DNA of 24,314 bases from a virus, in the IMG/VR virus record IMGVR_UViG_3300028025_004176, positions 1-24,314 of that record, one strand, 5' to 3'. Of this stretch, positions 1 to 17,258 are shown piece after piece. Numbering within the stretch: position 1 is the first letter of the stretch; each line of letters begins with the position of its first letter. The notes below the pieces were generated by a model. It was not told the DNA's origin. It did not search any database and saw only the letters and a list, made by a program, of their open reading frames with translations. Made by a program: the position numbers and the translations under genes.

Positions 1-2405
1 ATACAACTACTATTCCTGCAGAACCAGCACACTCAGTATTTATTGGGTATGTTGTTAAAGCCCATGCATCTTCTGGTGAAATTTTTATAAATATTCAAAA
101 TGGGTATGAACTAAATGAACTTCATGGTGTTTTAATTTCTGGATCTATTCAAAATAATGAACTACTATCTTATGACTTATCAAATGGTTTATGGATAAAT
201 AAAACAGCAAATGAAGCTGGAATTGCAACAACAGAAGATTTATCAGAATATTTAACAACTAGTTCAGCAGCTATTTTGTATCAACCTTTTAGTGTAAGAT
301 TATTTAACCTAACAGCCCTAGAGGGTGCTCCTGGAATATTACGTTCAGATGGGGGTCTTGGATGGAGTTTAGATCCAACAGAATTTTTGCCAACCTTTAC
401 TGCATCTTCAACTTATTTGACTCAGGTAGATGCATCTGATATTTATTTAACACAACTAGATGCAGAAAATTCATACTTAACACCTGCTTCTGCAAATTCT
501 TTATATCAACCATTAGATGGAGATTTAACTGCAATTGCAGCACTATCTGGATCTTCAGGGTTTTTAAAGAAAAATATTTTTGATGATTGGGTAATAGATA
601 GCAATACCTATTTAACAACTTATGATGCTTCAACACTTTATCAAACAGCTGGAAACTATGCAACAATTAGTGGAGTTGAAACTTTATCAAATAAAACAAT
701 GAGTGCTGCTTTTGTTAGTGGTGATATGACTTTTAACGATATTGATTATGAACATACAATTTCTTCGGGATCAAATAATTTTACAATTACTGGATATAAC
801 AATCTAAATCTAGTTTCTGCTAATGGAAGCATTGTTTTACAACCAGATGAATTTGTAAAAATATATGATGAACATGTAGCCACACAAGAATGGGTACAAT
901 TTCAAGATTATTTAACAGAGTCTAGTGCATCTGCCACATATTCTGTAATAGGTCATAATCATACATTAGATAGTCTTTCAAATGTTGTAATTACTGGAAC
1001 TCCAACAGATGGACAGGCAATTGTTTGGGACACGTCTACTTCAAAATGGGTAAATGAAACAATAGCTTCAGGATCTTCTTATCCAGATCAAACTGGTAAC
1101 AATGGAAAATTTTTACAAACAAATGGAGCAAGTGTATCTTGGCAAAATGTTGACTTTACTGGGTATCTAACAGAAATTTCAGCTTCTACTACTTACCAGC
1201 CTATTGGATCATACTTAACATCTACAATTTCTGACCAAGTAAATATTACAAATTCAACAACTTCAACTTCAACTACAACTGGTGCATTAGTTGTAACAGG
1301 TGGTGTTGGAATTGGTGATCATTTACATGTAGCTGGTGATATCCACGTTGATGGAGATATAAATATAACAGGATCTATTAGTGGATCTTTAACTTATGTA
1401 AATGTTACTGATTTAGTTGTAACAGATCCTTTAATTTACCTTGCAGAAGGTAATCCCAATGACTCGGTTGATGTTGGTATATTTGCTGCACTAAATCATG
1501 GTTCTTCTGCATATTACCATACTGGACTAATTAGAGATGCATCAGATTCTGGAAAATGGAAGTTAGCTTCAAATCTTTTAGATCCAACAAGCAATGTTAT
1601 TGATTTTACAGGTGCTACTTTTGATACATTAAAGATTGGTGCTCTTGAAGTTACAGACGCTTCAACAACTCGTACAAATCTTGGTCTTACAATTGGAACA
1701 GATGTTCAAGCTTATAACGCAACTTTGGCAGCAGTAGCAGGTGGGACATATACGGGTGATGACAGCATTACAACTCTTGGAACTATTACAGCTGGAACAT
1801 GGAATGGCTCAACAATTGGATATGCATATGGTGGAACTGGTCTTACTTCTTTAGGTAGTGCTGGCTATGTTCTTGCAGTAAATGCAACAGTTGACGGTCT
1901 TGAATGGGTAGAAATGACTGGTGGCGGATCATCATTTACCAACTCTTCAGAACTAGCAGCACTGCTATCAGATGAAACTGGAAGCGGATCTGTAGTATTT
2001 TCTAATTCACCAACTCTTACTACTCCAAATATTGGAGCAGCAACTGGAACTTCTTTGACTACAACTGGAAATGTTATTTCACATGTTGATATTTCAACAC
2101 CTACATTTGTTACAAATTCATATACCATTACATCTACTGATGATGGAAAACTTTTAATGCTAGATAATTCTACAACAGTTGGAAATCTTTTAATTCCAAC
2201 AGATGCCACTTTTAATTTTCCAATTGGAACACAGATAAACGTTGTTCAGCAAGGCACTGGATTAATTACAGTAGGTGCAGTAACTCCAGCAACAACAACA
2301 ATAAATGCCACACCTGGTAAAAAGCTTAGAGCACAATGGTCTTCGGCAGCAATTGTTAAAACTGCAGCAAATACTTGGTTATTGATGGGAGACCTTACGG
2401 TATAA
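1..2405 (+). CDS. Tail fibre protein, C-terminal part (5' end outside window)
   Basis: The reading frame is open from the first complete codon at base 3, so about 800 residues are visible and the N-terminus lies upstream. A TTG at 276 is simply an internal codon. The visible part is a patchwork of fibre modules. First comes a segment with NGYELNELHGVLISGS. Then follow at least six YLT...A(S)..Y repeats, a LSNKTM motif (the common LTNKTL fibre motif), and a TPTDGQAIVWD module. Next is a GALVVTGGVGIG / DIHVDGDINITG stretch as in fibres of T4-like and cyanophages, then a YGGTGLTSLG motif. The last ~100 residues (TSTDDGKLLML ... GKKLRAQWSSA ... WLLMGDL) resemble the usual C-terminal domain of such fibres. 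It probably mediates host recognition at the virion surface. The fibre class is secure; the receptor is unknown. Confidence 0.88.
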   Translation, partial: TTTIPAEPAHSVFIGYVVKAHASSGEIFINIQNGYELNELHGVLISGSIQNNELLSYDLSNGLWINKTANEAGIATTEDLSEYLTTSSAAILYQPFSVRLFNLTALEGAPGILRSDGGLGWSLDPTEFLPTFTASSTYLTQVDASDIYLTQLDAENSYLTPASANSLYQPLDGDLTAIAALSGSSGFLKKNIFDDWVIDSNTYLTTYDASTLYQTAGNYATISGVETLSNKTMSAAFVSGDMTFNDIDYEHTISSGSNNFTITGYNNLNLVSANGSIVLQPDEFVKIYDEHVATQEWVQFQDYLTESSASATYSVIGHNHTLDSLSNVVITGTPTDGQAIVWDTSTSKWVNETIASGSSYPDQTGNNGKFLQTNGASVSWQNVDFTGYLTEISASTTYQPIGSYLTSTISDQVNITNSTTSTSTTTGALVVTGGVGIGDHLHVAGDIHVDGDINITGSISGSLTYVNVTDLVVTDPLIYLAEGNPNDSVDVGIFAALNHGSSAYYHTGLIRDASDSGKWKLASNLLDPTSNVIDFTGATFDTLKIGALEVTDASTTRTNLGLTIGTDVQAYNATLAAVAGGTYTGDDSITTLGTITAGTWNGSTIGYAYGGTGLTSLGSAGYVLAVNATVDGLEWVEMTGGGSSFTNSSELAALLSDETGSGSVVFSNSPTLTTPNIGAATGTSLTTTGNVISHVDISTPTFVTNSYTITSTDDGKLLMLDNSTTVGNLLIPTDATFNFPIGTQINVVQQGTGLITVGAVTPATTTINATPGKKLRAQWSSAAIVKTAANTWLLMGDLTV

Positions 2406-2412
2406 TAAAATT

Positions 2413-3456
2413 ATGAGACTAAGACTTATAGGATCTGTTGCACAGTCAACAAGAAAAATATTTAGAGACACCTTTAATAGAGCTAACCAAACTGGTATTG
2501 GAACATCCTCTGATGGATCAACGTGGAATATAATTAGAGGATCTTTCAATATTACTTCTGATAAAGCAGATGGTCAAACTCCATCAAATTATCCATTAGC
2601 TTCAGTTGATATGCCAAAAGAAGAAGTCACCATTAGTTTAAAGGGCGTTACACAAGGTTCTACTGCAGCACTATGGGTTACGGATAGTGGAAACTGGTTT
2701 GCAGTAGGAATTGATCAAGAAACTATAAGTTGTAATTGTCAAACATGTACAACTCCTGGAAACTGTGCCACAACAAACTATGTGTGCAATGCAGGAGATT
2801 ATCCATGTACTGTAGCAAACTATGCTTGTAATGCAGCTAGTTATCCTTGTAATGGCGGATCTTATTTCTGTGATGTTGTTGGAAATAGATTTTGCAGATC
2901 ATATACTAGTCCATGTAATGCAATGAGTACTCCATTTAGCCCATGTACAAGATGGTCTAGAGTATGTAATGGTGGATATAATACTGGAAACTGTAATGGA
3001 TCAAACTCAATGTTTTCATGTAATGTTTATTCAAGCGTGTGTAATGCATATGCATGGACCTGCAATACTTGGGCTTTTAATTGTAACTCAGCCTCATACC
3101 CATGTGCTTCTTTTAATGCAGCTACCTTTTATCAGTGCAATTGTCAAACTTGCTACCCACAATATATTAGATTTATACAGTCCGTTGCAAATACAGTTTC
3201 AACTTTAACAAGTTGGACTATAGCAAGTGTCATACAGTCTTTTAGAGTTATAATATCTTCAATAAATCCAGCAAAAACTTCTGCAACAGCAACAATTAAG
3301 CCATATTCAGATACAGACCTATCTACACAAATTGGATCAGATCTAACCTACACTCCAACAGGAGTTGCAATTAATGCAAAATATGGTATAATGATTAAAC
3401 CTTCAAGTTATTCTCAAGGAACAACAATTGATGAAATAACTATAGAGACCAACTAG
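2413..3456 (+). CDS. Minor tail protein: jelly-roll-like fold interrupted by a cysteine-rich insertion
   Basis: 347 residues. Residues 1-103 (RDTFNRANQTGIGTSSDGS ... ALWVTDSGNWFAVGIDQE) and 248-347 (YIRFIQSVANTVSTL ... TTIDEITIETN) look like two halves of a beta-sandwich of the LamG/ConA-like type common in phage tail proteins. Between them residues 107-247 contain all 22 cysteines of the protein, mostly seven residues apart and framed by CNCQTC at both ends. The gene starts 7 bases after the fibre stop, with no clear Shine-Dalgarno sequence, so translation may be coupled to the fibre. The position after the fibre suggests a virion surface or receptor-binding role. The jelly-roll call is by sequence pattern only. 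The Cys insertion could bind metal or form disulphides. Confidence 0.75.
   Translation: MRLRLIGSVAQSTRKIFRDTFNRANQTGIGTSSDGSTWNIIRGSFNITSDKADGQTPSNYPLASVDMPKEEVTISLKGVTQGSTAALWVTDSGNWFAVGIDQETISCNCQTCTTPGNCATTNYVCNAGDYPCTVANYACNAASYPCNGGSYFCDVVGNRFCRSYTSPCNAMSTPFSPCTRWSRVCNGGYNTGNCNGSNSMFSCNVYSSVCNAYAWTCNTWAFNCNSASYPCASFNAATFYQCNCQTCYPQYIRFIQSVANTVSTLTSWTIASVIQSFRVIISSINPAKTSATATIKPYSDTDLSTQIGSDLTYTPTGVAINAKYGIMIKPSSYSQGTTIDEITIETN
2731..3153 (+). repeat. Cysteine-heptad repeat domain (protein residues 107-247)
   Basis: Cysteines lie at residues 107, 109, 112, 118, 125, 132, 139, 146, 153, 161, 168, 178, 185, 194, 203, 210, 217, 224, 231, 242, 244 and 247. Two runs have exact spacing of seven (125-153 and 203-231, five Cys each), with units such as CNAGDYP, CNAASYP and CNSASYP. 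A less regular centre separates them. CNCQTC (107-112) and CNCQTC (242-247) bracket the domain. Cys is usually followed by Asn and often preceded by an aromatic-Pro pair. Confidence 0.85.
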
Positions 3457-3466
3457 GAGAATCTTT

Positions 3467-3727
3467 ATGACAGAGCAAAATGAGCTACCAGGTGTTCCAG
3501 ATTTAGTTGCACCTAAGCATGATGTTACTGCGTTTCCATACGACATTGCTTTAATTATTGATGACACTATTTTTCAAATAATGAACGTTGATGGTCAACA
3601 GGCTGCACAGTTTTTATCTCAACCAAAATTTGTAAGAGTCCTTCCTGGAGATCTTGCTAAAATTGGTTGGAAATATATTGACGGTAAATTTTCTTATCCA
3701 GGTGAATCTCAGCTAGAAGGATTCTAA
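3467..3727 (+). CDS. Small phage protein of unknown function, cassette copy 1
   Basis: 86 residues. An AGGAG at 3455-3459 overlapping the previous stop fixes the ATG. The core (residues 27-75) runs IALIIDD, FQIMN, LSQP (50-53) and IGWKY (66-70). It matches the C-terminal half of the protein at 4447-4770 almost without gaps, so the two are paralogues. The N-terminus (ELPGVPDLVAPK) also matches the N-terminus of the zinc-ribbon protein at 6389. No membrane segment or catalytic motif is visible. Small proteins with this LSNP/LSQP...GW pattern are common in tail regions of phages, but I know of no assigned function. Confidence 0.75.
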   Translation: MTEQNELPGVPDLVAPKHDVTAFPYDIALIIDDTIFQIMNVDGQQAAQFLSQPKFVRVLPGDLAKIGWKYIDGKFSYPGESQLEGF

Positions 3728-3739
3728 TAGGGGCTCATC

Positions 3740-4447
3740 TTGAAATTAATACATTTTGTATGCTCAGAATCAATGGAAATTGGTAAACCAGATCTAATTA
3801 AAAAATTCATTCCTGAATGGTATAAAAAAGCAGAAACACATTTTTCTTCAGAAGAAGATTTAGCAATTGAAGAAGGAACTCAAAAAACAAGTGCTGGACT
3901 AAAAACATGTGTTCCATTTCTAGATGCAATGATATCTGGATATGCATTAGTAGTACCATTTGATATATACGTTGGAAAAACTGAAGATGGAGATCTTGAT
4001 ATAAAGTGGAATGCTCCACAAGGTTGGGATAATTTTGTTGAAGAAAGACCAAAGCAGTCTGGATCTACAATGCCAAGACCAGCAGGACATGCACCCAATC
4101 ATATGGTTTGGTCAGGTAGATGGGGGATTAAAGTTCCAAGAGGCTATAGCGTATTAGTAACACACCCTTTAAATAGACAAGACTTGCCTTTTACAACATC
4201 TTCTGCAATAATGGATAGTGATAAGTTCTTTGGAAATGGCAATATCCCATTTTTTATTAAAGAAGATTTTGTAGGAGTTATAGAAAAGGGAACACCTTTT
4301 GCTCAAATTATTCCAATTAAAAGAAAAAGATGGAAAATGATTCATAACCCTGCTTTGAAAGATACCATTCAAAGACAAGGGCATGATGTTAGAAAAAAAG
4401 AAGGAACTTATAAGAAAAAATATTGGCATAGAAAGGAATATTTTTAA
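3740..4447 (+). CDS. DUF6065-like phage protein, copy 1
   Basis: 235 residues from a TTG start preceded by a weak AGGGG. The TTG is supported because KLIHFVCS aligns with KIKFTSCV at the start of the paralogue at 4760. Landmarks are IPEWYKK (24-30), TCVPFLDA (56-63), GYSVLVTHPLNRQDLPF (135-151), MDSDKF (158-163) and KGTPFAQIIPIKR (183-195). All recur in the genes at 4760 and, more loosely, 7443. The end is basic and aromatic (KKKYWHRKEYF). The last ~65 residues of the core resemble the order of dUTPase-type beta-clip motifs (PRGY..., D-S-D, KG.P.AQ.I), but dUTPase catalytic residues are not convincing. Function unknown. The stop overlaps the next ATG (TAATG). Confidence 0.72.
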   Translation: MKLIHFVCSESMEIGKPDLIKKFIPEWYKKAETHFSSEEDLAIEEGTQKTSAGLKTCVPFLDAMISGYALVVPFDIYVGKTEDGDLDIKWNAPQGWDNFVEERPKQSGSTMPRPAGHAPNHMVWSGRWGIKVPRGYSVLVTHPLNRQDLPFTTSSAIMDSDKFFGNGNIPFFIKEDFVGVIEKGTPFAQIIPIKRKRWKMIHNPALKDTIQRQGHDVRKKEGTYKKKYWHRKEYF

Positions 4448-4770
4448 TGTCTCATAGCCACGATCATAGTGAGAATATAAGAGTTTTAACTACTAGAGAA
4501 GTTATTAGAGACTTTTTTACTAGAAGAAGAAAGTATCGAAGTAAAATTTCTTTAGATTCAAATGCCGTTCCTCCAGCACCACCAGAATCTAAAATTAACT
4601 ATTTAGCAATTATTTTAGATGGAGAAGTTCAGGAAATTATGAGAGCACAAAACAGATTAGCTGCTTTGCTTTTAAGTCAGCCACTAATTGTAGAATTTGA
4701 CCCTGAAGAAGTTAAGCCAAATGTAGGATGGGCTTACAAAGAAGAAGAATTTTTTGAATATGGTCAATAA
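4447..4770 (+). CDS. Small phage protein of unknown function, cassette copy 2
   Basis: 107 residues. The start overlaps the previous stop as TAATG. It has a His-rich beginning (MSHSHDHSEN), then a basic stretch (FTRRRKYRSK, 24-33) and a Pro-rich linker (VPPAPPE, 41-47). The final domain (50-105) is homologous to the 86-residue protein at 3467, with LAIILDG, QEIM, LSQP (76-79) and VGWAY (93-97). The N-terminal extension is absent from the first copy, so the paralogues differ in what they attach to the shared domain. The product is small and soluble with no enzyme motif. It pairs with the following DUF6065-like gene as 3467 does with 3740. Confidence 0.72.
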   Translation: MSHSHDHSENIRVLTTREVIRDFFTRRRKYRSKISLDSNAVPPAPPESKINYLAIILDGEVQEIMRAQNRLAALLLSQPLIVEFDPEEVKPNVGWAYKEEEFFEYGQ

Positions 4771-5422
4771 AAAAATTAAATTTACATCTTGCGTTCCACA
4801 AATAGATATACCACATCCTTCTCCAGCAAGTAGACTGGTTCCAGAATGGTATAGAAAGTTGCCAGGTGCTGCAGATAAAATAGAAACAGTTAAAAAATGT
4901 GTTCCAGTTTTAGATGCACTAACTTCTGGATATATGATTACTCTGCCAGTGGATGTTCATTTTAATGGAGAAGAAAGATCTTTTTGGTATGACTCGCCGT
5001 TTGAAATTAATTCTAATCACTATTTATCACAAACTCAGGGTGTTGATGTTGGACCTGAATTTCATGAACAGCCACATAAATGGATTAATCAATGGCTAAT
5101 CGAAACTCCAAAAGGATACAGTTGCTTATTTATTCATCCTTTAAATAGGGCAGACCTACCTTTTAAATCCTTTACTGGAATTGTTGACACAGATAAGCAT
5201 CCAATTGTAATTAATTTCCCTTTTGTTATGAAAAAAGATTTTTCTGGGGTAATTCCAGCAGGAACTCCAATAATTCAAATTATTCCATTTAAAAGAGATA
5301 ACTGGTCTATGGATGTAGTTGATGACAAACCATTTAAAGAACATCCAGAAGCTCATGAGGTGGAAAATCCTCCATTTAATTGGTATAAAAGAAGATGGTG
5401 GACTAGAAAGACGTACTCTTAA
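4760..5422 (+). CDS. DUF6065-like phage protein, copy 2
   Basis: 220 residues from the ATG at 4760, which overlaps the previous gene by 11 bases. An in-frame TTG two codons earlier is possible but less likely. It is homologous to the 3740 gene along its whole length: KIKFTSCV, VPEWYRK (27-33), KCVPVLDA (46-53), TPKGYSCLFIHPLNRADLPF (116-135), IVDTDK (141-146) and AGTPIIQIIPFKRDNW (167-182). It also ends in a basic aromatic tail (WYKRRWWTRKTYS). The pair arose by tandem duplication together with the preceding small gene. Unknown function. The stop overlaps the next start (TAATG), so the cassette and the glycosyltransferase are probably translated together. Confidence 0.72.
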   Translation: MVNKKIKFTSCVPQIDIPHPSPASRLVPEWYRKLPGAADKIETVKKCVPVLDALTSGYMITLPVDVHFNGEERSFWYDSPFEINSNHYLSQTQGVDVGPEFHEQPHKWINQWLIETPKGYSCLFIHPLNRADLPFKSFTGIVDTDKHPIVINFPFVMKKDFSGVIPAGTPIIQIIPFKRDNWSMDVVDDKPFKEHPEAHEVENPPFNWYKRRWWTRKTYS

Positions 5423-6703: not shown

Positions 6704-7450
6704 ATGGTTGACGTAAAGTTTGTAACGGGAGATGCAACAAACTTATCTTTTATTGAAAGTAATTCAGTAGATTTAATTATTGCAGCACCCCCTTTTATAA
6801 ATAGAAATCCTACTGACTATGGCGGAGATCCAAGAAAACAAATAAACTTTAATTCTAAAAAAATGTTAAAGCTTCTTATTAAAAGCACAAAAGAGATGGA
6901 AAGAGTTTTAAAGCCAACTGGGAGTATTTGGATTGAGATTTCTCCAGAAGATAATTTGATGCATAGCTATATTACTGAGGTTTTAAAAAAAACAAATCTT
7001 AAGCATCCTGATACAATTATTCATAAAATTTTAGATGATGAAAATAAGTCAAATATAGATGAAGCTATTTACAAAGATTGGTTTTTGTGGTTTCATCTTG
7101 TTAAAGATGACAAGGCATTTTACTCAAATCCTTTTAAGGTAAAAAAATTTAGAGACCCAATTTGGTATTTAAATAACACTAATAGAGAAGATATAGTTGA
7201 CAAAACGTTGAGACTTAATTATCCTAAAATTGTTAACTATACTGTTATCAAAGATATTCCAGAAAGATTTATAGAAATGTATACCAAAGAAAAAGCTTTA
7301 GTGCTAGACCCATTTGGTGGAAGTGGAACAGTTGCTTATGCAGCATATACTATGAATAGAAATGCTATAAGTGTTGATATTTCTCAAGAACAAACCGATG
7401 TGGCTAAAAAAAGATTAGAAGTAGTAAAGGCTATGCAAGAAAATGTTTAA
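6704..7450 (+). CDS. DNA methyltransferase (beta-class N6-adenine/N4-cytosine type), altered catalytic motif
   Basis: 248 residues; AAGGA is eight bases before the ATG. The motif order is that of a beta-class amino-methyltransferase. Motif IV comes first (DLIIAAPPFINRNPTDYGGD, 23-42), the AdoMet loop DPFGGSGT (202-209) is near the C-terminus, and an acidic SVDIS follows. The oddity is motif IV: the usual (D/N/S)PP(Y/F/W) reads A28-P-P-F31, without the polar first residue that contacts the target amino group. The protein is short, with little room for a large target-recognition domain. No partner restriction enzyme is visible, so if active it is an orphan methylase that could protect phage DNA. 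It may instead be inactive or act on another substrate. Confidence 0.8.
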   Translation: MVDVKFVTGDATNLSFIESNSVDLIIAAPPFINRNPTDYGGDPRKQINFNSKKMLKLLIKSTKEMERVLKPTGSIWIEISPEDNLMHSYITEVLKKTNLKHPDTIIHKILDDENKSNIDEAIYKDWFLWFHLVKDDKAFYSNPFKVKKFRDPIWYLNNTNREDIVDKTLRLNYPKIVNYTVIKDIPERFIEMYTKEKALVLDPFGGSGTVAYAAYTMNRNAISVDISQEQTDVAKKRLEVVKAMQENV

Positions 7451-8168
7451 TAAAAAATATATAGAGATAAGCAGAATATCAGATGAAGATGTTTTTGAAG
7501 TTGTTCCAAATAAGGTAAAAAGAAAATGGATGGATAAAACAGATGGAAATGCTTATAAATGCGTTCCAATGAACATGGTTAACTCTTATGGCTGGACAGT
7601 TTTATCTCCAGGTGAATTTACTGCAACCTGGGATGGAGGAGATTCAAAGCATTCTCTTACAGTAGATCTTGAAAAAGATTCTCCTTTTCAATTTGCAGCC
7701 TCTGAATTTGGTCATGGAATACTCTCTGTTGTTCCAGATTTTATTATAAGAACATCAAAAAATGTTTCACTTTATGTTAGAGGTATTCCAAATCAAATAG
7801 CTATAGGTCTACAACCATTTGATGGAATCGTAGAAACTGATTGGCTTCCTTTTACTTTTACATTTAATTATAAATTTGTAAAACCTGGAAGACTTACTAT
7901 AAAAAAGGATCAGCCACTTTTTACCTTTTTTCCAATAGAAAGAGGATACATAGAAAGTTTTGAAACAAGAGAAACTCTTATTTATAAAGATAAAGAGTTT
8001 TATGAAGACTATTTAAAGTATGCAGAACTAAGAGAGTACCAGCATTCTGGAAAAGAAACTAAGGATGCTGGAGCATACTTAAAAGGAAGACTGTATGACA
8101 AAGAGTTTGATATACTTAATCACACTAAAAAACTAAGCCTTCCAGGGTTTAAGAAAGAAGAAAAATAA
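7443..8168 (+). CDS. DUF6065 family protein, copy 3 (divergent)
   Basis: 241 residues, overlapping the methyltransferase by 8 bases. Landmarks are VVPNKVKRKWMDKTDGNAYKC (20-40), CVPMNMVNSYGW (40-51), W.GG (63-66), GIVETDWLPFTFTFNYKF (128-145) and KKDQPLFTFFPIER (154-167). The pattern corresponds to DUF6065 as I remember it. The same skeleton (EWY or KWM, KCVP, GY/GW, DTD or ETD, KGTP or KKDQP then FFPIER) links it to the genes at 3740 and 4760. After residue 170 it has a charged helical tail (FYEDYLKYAELREYQHSGKE) absent from the others. Function unknown. The stop overlaps the next ATG (TAATG), coupling it to the sugar dehydratase gene. Confidence 0.75.
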   Translation: MFNKKYIEISRISDEDVFEVVPNKVKRKWMDKTDGNAYKCVPMNMVNSYGWTVLSPGEFTATWDGGDSKHSLTVDLEKDSPFQFAASEFGHGILSVVPDFIIRTSKNVSLYVRGIPNQIAIGLQPFDGIVETDWLPFTFTFNYKFVKPGRLTIKKDQPLFTFFPIERGYIESFETRETLIYKDKEFYEDYLKYAELREYQHSGKETKDAGAYLKGRLYDKEFDILNHTKKLSLPGFKKEEK

Positions 8169-15317: not shown

Positions 15318-17258
15318 ATGTCATTTATTGACTCCAATGGATCTATTACAGATCCTTATCGCAATTTTATTCATATTTCAAGGTATGCTCGCTGGATTGA
15401 AAGCGAAAACCGCAGAGAGACTTGGCAGGAAACTGTTGATAGGTACTGCAATTTTATGAAGGACCATTTAGTATTAAACTATGGCTATAGTCCAAATGCA
15501 AAGATCTTTGATGAAGTCAGAGAAGCAATCTTAAAGCATCACATAATGCCTTCTATGAGGGCACTGATGACAGCAGGACCTGCTTTAGAGAGAGATCATA
15601 TCGCAGCATACAACTGTTCTTTCATCGCTGTAGATAGCCCTAGAGCCTTTGATGAAGCAATGTATATTTTGATGAATGGAACTGGTGTTGGATTTAGCGT
15701 TGAGCAAAAGTATATTAATCAACTCCCAGTAATTGCTGAGTCATTCTTCCAAACAAACACAACTATTGTTGTTGATGATTCAAAACTTGGTTGGGCAAAA
15801 GCTTTTAAAGAATTGATTGCACTTCTTTATCAAGGTCAAATTCCAAACTGGGATGTTTCAAAGGTTCGTCCAGCAGGAGCAAGACTAAAAGTATTTGGAG
15901 GAAGAGCATCTGGACCAGACCCACTTGTTGATTTATTTAATTTCACTATTGAAACTTTTAAACTTGCTGCAGGAAGACGATTAAAGTCTATTGAAGCACA
16001 CGACCTTATGTGTAAGGTTGGAGAAGTTGTTGTTGTTGGTGGAGTTCGCAGAAGTGCTTTAATTTCACTTTCAAATCTTGATGACTTTGAGATGGCTAAG
16101 GCTAAGAGTGGTCAGTGGTGGGAAGGAAATGGACAAAGAGCACTAGCAAATAACTCTGCTGTATACAACTCTAAGCCAAATACTGCACAATTTCTTCGTG
16201 AATGGCGTAACCTATATGAGTCAAAGTCTGGAGAGCGTGGTATCTACAATATAGATTCTGTTAGAAAGCATATTGATAAGTTTGGTCGTAGAGATTCAAG
16301 TCTAGTTGGTGGGACAAATCCTTGTGGAGAAATTTTACTTCGTCCAAATGAATTTTGTAATCTTACAGAAGTTGTAATTGAAGCATCTGACACAAAGGAA
16401 ACTTTGCTTGAAAAGGTTCGCCTTGCTACCATTCTTGGAACTTGGCAATCAACCTTGACAAACTTTAAGTATATTAGAAAAACTTGGAGAGATAATTGTG
16501 AAGAAGAAAGACTACTTGGCGTATCTTTAACAGGAATTTATGGAAATAAGATTACTGCTACAAATGGAAAAGCCCTTGAAGCACTTCTTGATGAGATGAG
16601 AGATCTATCTGTTTCAGTAAATGATAAAGAGGCTAAGTCTTTAAACATTAATCCTTCAGTATCAATTACCTGTGTAAAGCCTTCAGGAACTGTCTCACAG
16701 CTTACAGGAGTATCCTCTGGTATTCACCCATGGTACTCAGAATATTACATTAGAAGTGTTAGAGCAGATAATAAAGATCCACTAACACAATTCTTAAAAG
16801 ATTCTGGAATTCCATTTGAACCAGATGTTATGAAGCCTGAAGCAACTACAGTATTCTATTTTCCAATTAAGGCTCCAAAAAATGCAATTCTTACAAAAGA
16901 CTTGACTGCGATTGATCATCTTGAAATGTGGAAGACTTATAGAACTCATTGGACAGAGCATAATCCAAGTGTAACTGTTAATGTTGAAGAGGACGAGTGG
17001 ATGCGTGTAGGAGCTTGGGTGTTTGATAACTTTGACTCAATTGGTGGAGTATCTTTTTTGCCAGCAGTAGAGCACTCATATAAACAAGCACCATATCAAG
17101 AAGTATCTAAAGAAGAGTATGAATCTTGGTTAAGCAAGATGCCTGATTCAATTCGTTGGGACATGCTTTCTTTGTATGAGACAACCGATGGAACAACTGG
17201 AAGTCAAGAGCTATCCTGCGTTGCTGGAGCATGTGAGATTGTAGATATTACCAAGTAG
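15318..17258 (+). CDS. nrdJ: Adenosylcobalamin-dependent ribonucleoside-triphosphate reductase (class II)
   Basis: 646 residues. It reduces ribonucleotides to deoxyribonucleotides using a cysteine thiyl radical made with adenosylcobalamin. The five functional cysteines of the Lactobacillus leichmannii-type enzyme are all visible: C100 (YNCSF), C336 in NPCGEI (radical site, with E338), C347 (EFCNLTEV), and the C-terminal shuttle pair C634/C639 (SCVAGAC). Other markers are NGTGVGFSVEQ, VRPAGARLKVFGGRASGP, GGVRRSALIS, VKPSGTVSQLTG and HNPSVTVNV. It is a monomeric RTPR type, shorter than the bacterial prototype but apparently complete. AGAAGGA at 15300 precedes the ATG. It would raise dNTP supply independent of oxygen but requires host or environmental B12. 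It is unusual between holin and head genes. Confidence 0.95.
   Translation: MSFIDSNGSITDPYRNFIHISRYARWIESENRRETWQETVDRYCNFMKDHLVLNYGYSPNAKIFDEVREAILKHHIMPSMRALMTAGPALERDHIAAYNCSFIAVDSPRAFDEAMYILMNGTGVGFSVEQKYINQLPVIAESFFQTNTTIVVDDSKLGWAKAFKELIALLYQGQIPNWDVSKVRPAGARLKVFGGRASGPDPLVDLFNFTIETFKLAAGRRLKSIEAHDLMCKVGEVVVVGGVRRSALISLSNLDDFEMAKAKSGQWWEGNGQRALANNSAVYNSKPNTAQFLREWRNLYESKSGERGIYNIDSVRKHIDKFGRRDSSLVGGTNPCGEILLRPNEFCNLTEVVIEASDTKETLLEKVRLATILGTWQSTLTNFKYIRKTWRDNCEEERLLGVSLTGIYGNKITATNGKALEALLDEMRDLSVSVNDKEAKSLNINPSVSITCVKPSGTVSQLTGVSSGIHPWYSEYYIRSVRADNKDPLTQFLKDSGIPFEPDVMKPEATTVFYFPIKAPKNAILTKDLTAIDHLEMWKTYRTHWTEHNPSVTVNVEEDEWMRVGAWVFDNFDSIGGVSFLPAVEHSYKQAPYQEVSKEEYESWLSKMPDSIRWDMLSLYETTDGTTGSQELSCVAGACEIVDITK

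Follow-up and report, generated by a model that had tools for sequence, protein, structure and literature searches.

A cysteine-rich insert in a phage tail jelly-roll protein is probably a hairpin closed by nested disulphides

Stacked disulphides that link two antiparallel strands are known from theta-defensins and protegrins, secreted peptides of about 18 residues that have two to three such rungs. The cysteine-rich insert of a phage tail protein analyzed here differs from these peptides in its inferred rungs, which number 1 to 23 among its relatives, in its location inside a virion protein and in the mirrored, lineage-specific spacing of its cysteines. A long two-stranded stalk that leaves a beta-sandwich and has disulphide-stabilised variable parts is described for the bovine ultralong CDR-H3 (PMC5994613, PMC8602281). 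The phage insert resembles this stalk in outline but is unrelated to it, and the disulphides of CDR-H3 are located in a terminal knob, whereas those proposed for the phage insert would be nested along both arms. The fibre-tip domain of mycobacteriophage Douge binds host cells as well as mycobacterial glycans, and the paper that describes it makes no mention of disulphides (PMC13033339). This central fibre tip domain of Douge gp20 (PDB 8ZDP/8ZDQ) is the best scaffold match of the phage protein, with a Z score of 17.6 (8zdp_v) over 170 residues at 2.7 Å, although the identity is about 16%. The same ConA-like fold is found in CBM66 (4B1M, Z 16.3) and in the receptor-binding domain of TM4 gp23 (9N6A, Z 15.5), but sequence similarity of either to the phage protein was not detected. 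We know of no cysteine-ladder insert in TM4 gp23 or CBM66.

The window, a viral IMG/VR record 24,314 bases long, encodes on its plus strand a tail protein of 347 amino acids (2413-3456) in which a ConA-like jelly roll is interrupted by the cysteine-rich insert. The preliminary description had confined all 22 cysteines to one insertion framed by CNCQTC at both ends, and both statements hold: the N-terminal jelly-roll part (residues 1-106, 2413-2730) and the C-terminal part (residues 248-347, 3154-3453) contain no cysteine, the insertion spans residues 107-247 (2731-3153), and the two CNCQTC motifs form its N-side foot at residues 107-112 (2731-2748) and its C-side foot at residues 242-247 (3136-3153). 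Two heptad runs of five cysteines each had also been described. The second run does have five (Cys 203, 210, 217, 224 and 231; residues 203-231, 3019-3105), whereas the first has six (Cys 118, 125, 132, 139, 146 and 153; 2764-2871). Between them lie an irregular middle and, judging by cysteine spacing and covariation, a putative turn (residues 154-202, 2872-3018), with the central interval at 168-178. From end to end, the intervals between cysteines are 2,3,6,7,7,7,7,7,8,7,10,7,9,9,7,7,7,7,11,2,3. The gene is conserved, since five relatives with 81-92% identity hold every one of the 22 cysteine positions while the intervening residues differ. We assign a probability of roughly 0.7 to the reading that the insert is an antiparallel hairpin, closed by nested disulphides between its two arms and mounted on the jelly roll of a tail fibre, on the basis of even cysteine numbers, mirrored intervals, gains in pairs and covarying segments among 98 relatives. 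In the window protein, the hairpin would have 11 rungs, with a pairing deduced from sequence statistics of 107-247, 109-244, 112-242, 118-231, 125-224, 132-217, 139-210, 146-203, 153-194, 161-185 and 168-178.

AlphaFold2, employed with an alignment of 43 family sequences, modelled the jelly roll of the window protein with high confidence (pLDDT mostly >80; past residue 10 mostly >80 in the N-terminal part and mostly >85 in the C-terminal part). In this model strands 94-102 and 250-258 border the insert, and the foot of the insert consists of strands 105-114 (105-107 and 110-114 at the N-side motif) and 238-247. Judging by strand order and register, these foot strands would extend the strand pair 94-102/250-258. 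Residues 116-237 were modelled with low confidence and the arms reached a pLDDT of about 30; the fold proposed beyond the foot is therefore drawn from sequence statistics. For L106, a relative with 14 cysteines (N arm CNCYNYSYSCNCYNYSYSCNC, C arm CQTCSGTSCSTCSGTSCSTC), strands 105-115 and 166-175 were modelled with a register that matches rungs 107-175, 109-172 and 116-167 and with a pLDDT above 90 at the foot that dropped outward; of the hairpin, the model gave the foot only. A Foldseek search against the PDB gave no E value below 0.001. A second alignment of the Foldseek matches yielded the Z scores to jelly-roll relatives quoted above, which identify the scaffold as a ConA-like beta-sandwich with actinobacteriophage receptor-binding domains and carbohydrate-binding modules as its closest folds. 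The placement of the insertion within a tail jelly roll is borne out by the modelled scaffold, the structural matches and the fibre-gene context.

To date, 98 distinct relatives have been recovered, all of them from uncultivated phages. Six scans of viral contigs provided 55 distinct full-length members, and 43 more came from two hold-out scans, which were collected after the even-cysteine hypothesis had been formed in order to test that rule. In all 98 the cysteine insert is located between the same two jelly-roll strands, and a single lone cysteine (L188) was found outside the insert across all of their jelly rolls, a confinement that is far beyond chance. The number of insert cysteines is even in every one of the 98 members and ranges from 2 to 46. 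It is even throughout the first set (10 to 42 cysteines), in all 43 new inserts of the hold-out set (32 of 32 clusters) and, when inserts are clustered at 50% identity, in 60 of 60 clusters (p 9e-19). Some of the distant members have only 2 to 8 cysteines. Relatives that differ by two cysteines have gained one in each arm, as can be seen by comparing L013 with L015, L160 with L158 and L027 with L089. Even numbers in all members together with gains of one cysteine per arm agree with a cystine ladder distributed over two facing strands. Halving the cysteine number gives an odd value in 51 of the 98 members, so that the arms cannot close all of their bonds within themselves.

These counts also bear on a reading in which the arms do pair as a hairpin, but the disulphides are formed partly within one arm or between the subunits of a trimer. 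Such bonds would suit the vicinal cysteines and close pairs (intervals of 1 to 3) that are present in many relatives, and fibres are usually trimers. We nevertheless regard this arrangement as rather unlikely, as bonds between chains need no even number of cysteines per chain, the odd half-counts exclude a pairing wholly within the arms, and cysteines are gained one per arm.

The proposed nested cross-arm pairing is also reflected in the spacing of the cysteines, as across inserts interval k counted from the N side is similar to interval k counted from the C side. This mirror relation has a combined Fisher p of 1.8e-29 over the 57 clusters tested, although it is not present in every cluster. 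Within the first 28 clusters and with the framing motif excluded, the combined p is 7e-17, and the mirror point that scores best coincides with the true centre in 22 of them, against 3.3 expected. The hold-out figures (combined p 3.6e-6; centre best in 10 of 29 clusters against 4 expected) indicate that the signal is weaker in distant lineages. Representative intervals are 10,10,10,10,8,8,5|15|5,8,8,10,10,10,10 in L016 and 12,11,34,7,18,7|20|7,18,8,35,12,11 in L037, while in L261 a run of 10s lies opposite a run of 10s and is followed by (7,4)x3 opposite (4,7)x3. Long stretches free of cysteines are mirrored as well, with 34 opposite 35 residues in L037, 41 opposite 42 in L039 and 48 opposite 48 in L218. 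At the foot of the window protein, intervals 2,3 lie opposite 3,2, and this opposition of a step of 2 to a step of 3 in CNC/CQTC is what a beta bulge would give. The symmetry about the centre that had been noted for the insertion is present in most lineages of the 98 relatives, whereas in the window lineage alone, in which most intervals are 7, the mirror test with the framing removed is not significant (p about 0.2). L025, L032, L142, L152 and several members of the hold-out set show little or no mirror symmetry. In L048 it appears only if pairs of intervals are summed (8+1 opposite 3+6, 10+1 opposite 5+6), which the plain score missed.

The preliminary description had called the strict C-x6 repeat unusual for a virion surface protein and had offered either a disulphide-stapled solenoid or a metal-binding array. 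The repeat unit is 5, 7, 8, 9, 10, 11, 12 or 13 residues long depending on the lineage, or there is none, while even counts are always kept and the mirror relation is kept in most lineages; the heptad is the spacing of one lineage and neither a rule nor the defining feature of the family. Homologues with loops that lack cysteines and are spaced at random were not found as a rule, even if some distant members retain few cysteines. A solenoid in which successive heptads are stacked and stapled by disulphides would explain the strict C-x6 runs of the window protein, but we hold it to be unlikely. Its period would have to vary from 5 to 13 residues among relatives that mostly keep the mirror relation, the half-counts are often odd, and opposite units of unequal length (7 and 9 residues in L287, 13 and 12 in L268) fit bulged facing strands better than one coil. 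Of the earlier proposal, the disulphide stapling is the part that most likely stands, given parity and mirror spacing, and the solenoid is the part that is not supported; the result goes beyond that proposal in that a disulphide zipper common to the whole family is most likely. In a metal-binding array, the cysteines would hold zinc, copper or iron-sulphur clusters in the manner of a metallothionein and the insert would fold around the metal. Cysteines do account for 14% of the insert residues and thiolate ligands suit a reducing cytoplasm, but this possibility appears unlikely, since the cysteine number is not a multiple of four in 51 of the 98 members, yet always even, since the inserts contain 0.2% His and 2% Asp and Glu together, and since neither mirror spacing nor gains of one cysteine per arm are expected for clusters of four.

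Under the nested cross-arm pairing, segments between the cysteines have defined partners in the opposite arm, and these partners change together. The window protein and L002 differ jointly at residues 140-145 and 204-209, where NVANYA facing NVYAWT is replaced by NAASYP facing NVYSSV. Between L009 and L012, the SPSYP and GYYYA heptads have been traded between the arms at segments that face each other, between L030 and L031 the same has happened to the interval patterns 3,3 and 2,6, and in L287 units of TNPYNP lie opposite units of GTGGN, with a block swap. When the six closest members are compared, the segment whose divergence correlates best or near-best with that of a given variable segment is the one mirrored to it (correlations of 0.79, 0.96, 0.61 and 0.96 for four segments); at n=6 this comparison is illustrative. 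Exactly one heptad of a facing pair ends in proline in 35 of 59 distinct pairs, as opposed to 27 obtained by shuffling (p 0.009); the corresponding rule is only mildly supported, and the pairs are not independent of each other. The alternative that the insert is a low-complexity repeat without a defined fold, expanded by replication slippage, is very unlikely despite the DNA-identical repeats that exist (three copies of TGTAATGCAGCTTCTTATCCT in L003) and the low confidence of the modelled arms, as slippage gives direct repeats and not mirror order, an inverted repeat in the DNA would turn TGT/TGC into ACA/GCA (Thr/Ala) and thus give no mirrored cysteines, and parity holds in 98 of 98 members with cysteines fixed while their neighbours change. 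Because neither slippage nor DNA inversion should yield a mirror under the genetic code, its order is most simply explained as being kept by selection on a fold.

Heptad residues show dN/dS values of 0.1-0.6, compared to about 0.1 for the jelly roll. The insert and the jelly roll can also differ in their histories: between L002 and L004 the dS is 0.04 in the insert and 0.41 in the jelly roll, while L002 and L003 present the opposite case with 0.70 in the insert and 0.12 in the jelly roll. These differences are a sign that inserts are exchanged by recombination. Variation driven by a diversity-generating retroelement was also considered and is not supported, as RVT_1 was absent from six records that carry relatives, which may be fragments, in a search whose control worked.

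In the mechanism that we propose, one strand pair of the ConA-like jelly roll, a domain of receptor-binding type at the tip of the tail fibre, would carry the hairpin. The cysteine ladder would serve as a fixed frame, in which residues between the rungs change fast, and whole inserts would pass between phages. Fast change and exchange of inserts would suit a surface in contact with a host receptor that varies, most simply for host recognition at the fibre tip, a role in which we place moderate confidence. The cysteine-rich loop seems to be a spike that changes fast and has not been described before, and the phages may touch their hosts with it. We lean somewhat towards viewing a two-stranded disulphide zipper of variable length, with up to 23 rungs, as a new architecture, in which facing segments obey a pairing rule, by which one type of strand faces the other in either orientation, and co-evolve through compensating changes like the sides of an RNA stem, and which would equip a receptor-binding domain with a rigid and variable spike. 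A point against disulphides is the reducing environment of the bacterial cytoplasm. As phage proteins are made in this compartment, the window protein would be synthesized in its reduced form and presumably oxidized on the virion after lysis. No dedicated oxidase was found, although the Evr1/Alr search lacked a working positive control and is thus uninformative; thioredoxin is encoded in 4 of 15 records. If the reading is right, phages build heavily disulphide-bonded spikes despite the reducing cytoplasm of their synthesis, and it would then have to be explained by what route, and at which stage, such a number of correct bonds is made. The topology of a protein element could then be read from sequence alone through an even cysteine number and mirrored spacing, and hairpins that are rigid and modular, with the positions between the rungs left free, would be of interest as scaffolds.

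Searches of the window protein against Pfam gave no match, the best PHROGs hit had an E value of 0.2 and thus matched no described family, and a sequence search of the PDB returned nothing at E 10. With four family members as queries, tblastn gave no match in 50,697 phage records, and a description of a cysteine-rich or disulphide-ladder phage tail protein was not found in the literature searched. The scaffold belongs to a known type; for the insert, these databases and this literature contain no described relative. In two scans, no relative was detected among bacterial and archaeal genomes, and hence no prophage carrier is known from the genomes scanned. The family has been overlooked, since its members come from many uncultivated phages and none from the phage isolates searched. 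Three BFVD entries of uncultured Caudovirales phages, A0A6J7WYT9, A0A6J5KM36 and A0A6J5RDN1, match strongly in structure and sequence (E 3e-22 to 3e-17, 23-29% identity); they are probably members of the family and carry no description or function. Two paralogues (L017 and L084) with 16 cysteines each are encoded about 5 kb apart in IMGVR_UViG_3300046787_000129, each of them behind its own fibre gene. An identical frameshift within the insert is present in the family genes L035 (4989-6000) and L036 (5001-6000), which stem from different metagenomes; the N half with 10 cysteines stops early and the C half runs on in another frame. This could be a common genuine break, a common assembly fault or a reading shift.

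The gene upstream of the window protein gene (276-2405, plus strand) encodes a tail-fibre protein of 709 amino acids with the C-terminal domain ...GKLLMLDNSTT...RAQWSSAAIVKTAANTWLLMGDLTV. Its final 125 residues match the minor tail protein of PHROG 8780 and minor tail proteins of Gordonia phages. Downstream, a small conserved protein of 86 amino acids is encoded (3467-3727, plus strand; motif IIDx...MNxDGQxAAxxLSxPxFVxV). In most of the 29 relatives whose neighbourhoods were inspected, the family gene likewise lies between the fibre gene and the small gene, which places it in a tail-fibre context. The family of the small protein, for which the motif can also be written IIDxVVxQxMNxDGxxAAxxLSxPTFVQV, had a PHROG match no better than E 0.14, and another copy of its theme is found at 4447-4770. 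The proteins encoded at 3740-4447, 4754-5422 and 7443-8168 are alike by eye, with Cys-Val-Pro near the start and HPLNRxDLPF in two of them, and are probably paralogues judging by these shared motifs. L017, L019 and L023 also have proteins similar to this group behind their family genes. A ribonucleotide reductase can be recognized by sequence at 15318-17258. Behind it come two further genes and then the portal and the protease, which resembles the arrangement in Streptomyces phage Comrade. At about 52% identity, the nearest portals are those of Streptomyces phages, among them Comrade. Based on the similarity of the portal, the phage groups with the actinobacteriophages in a wide sense.
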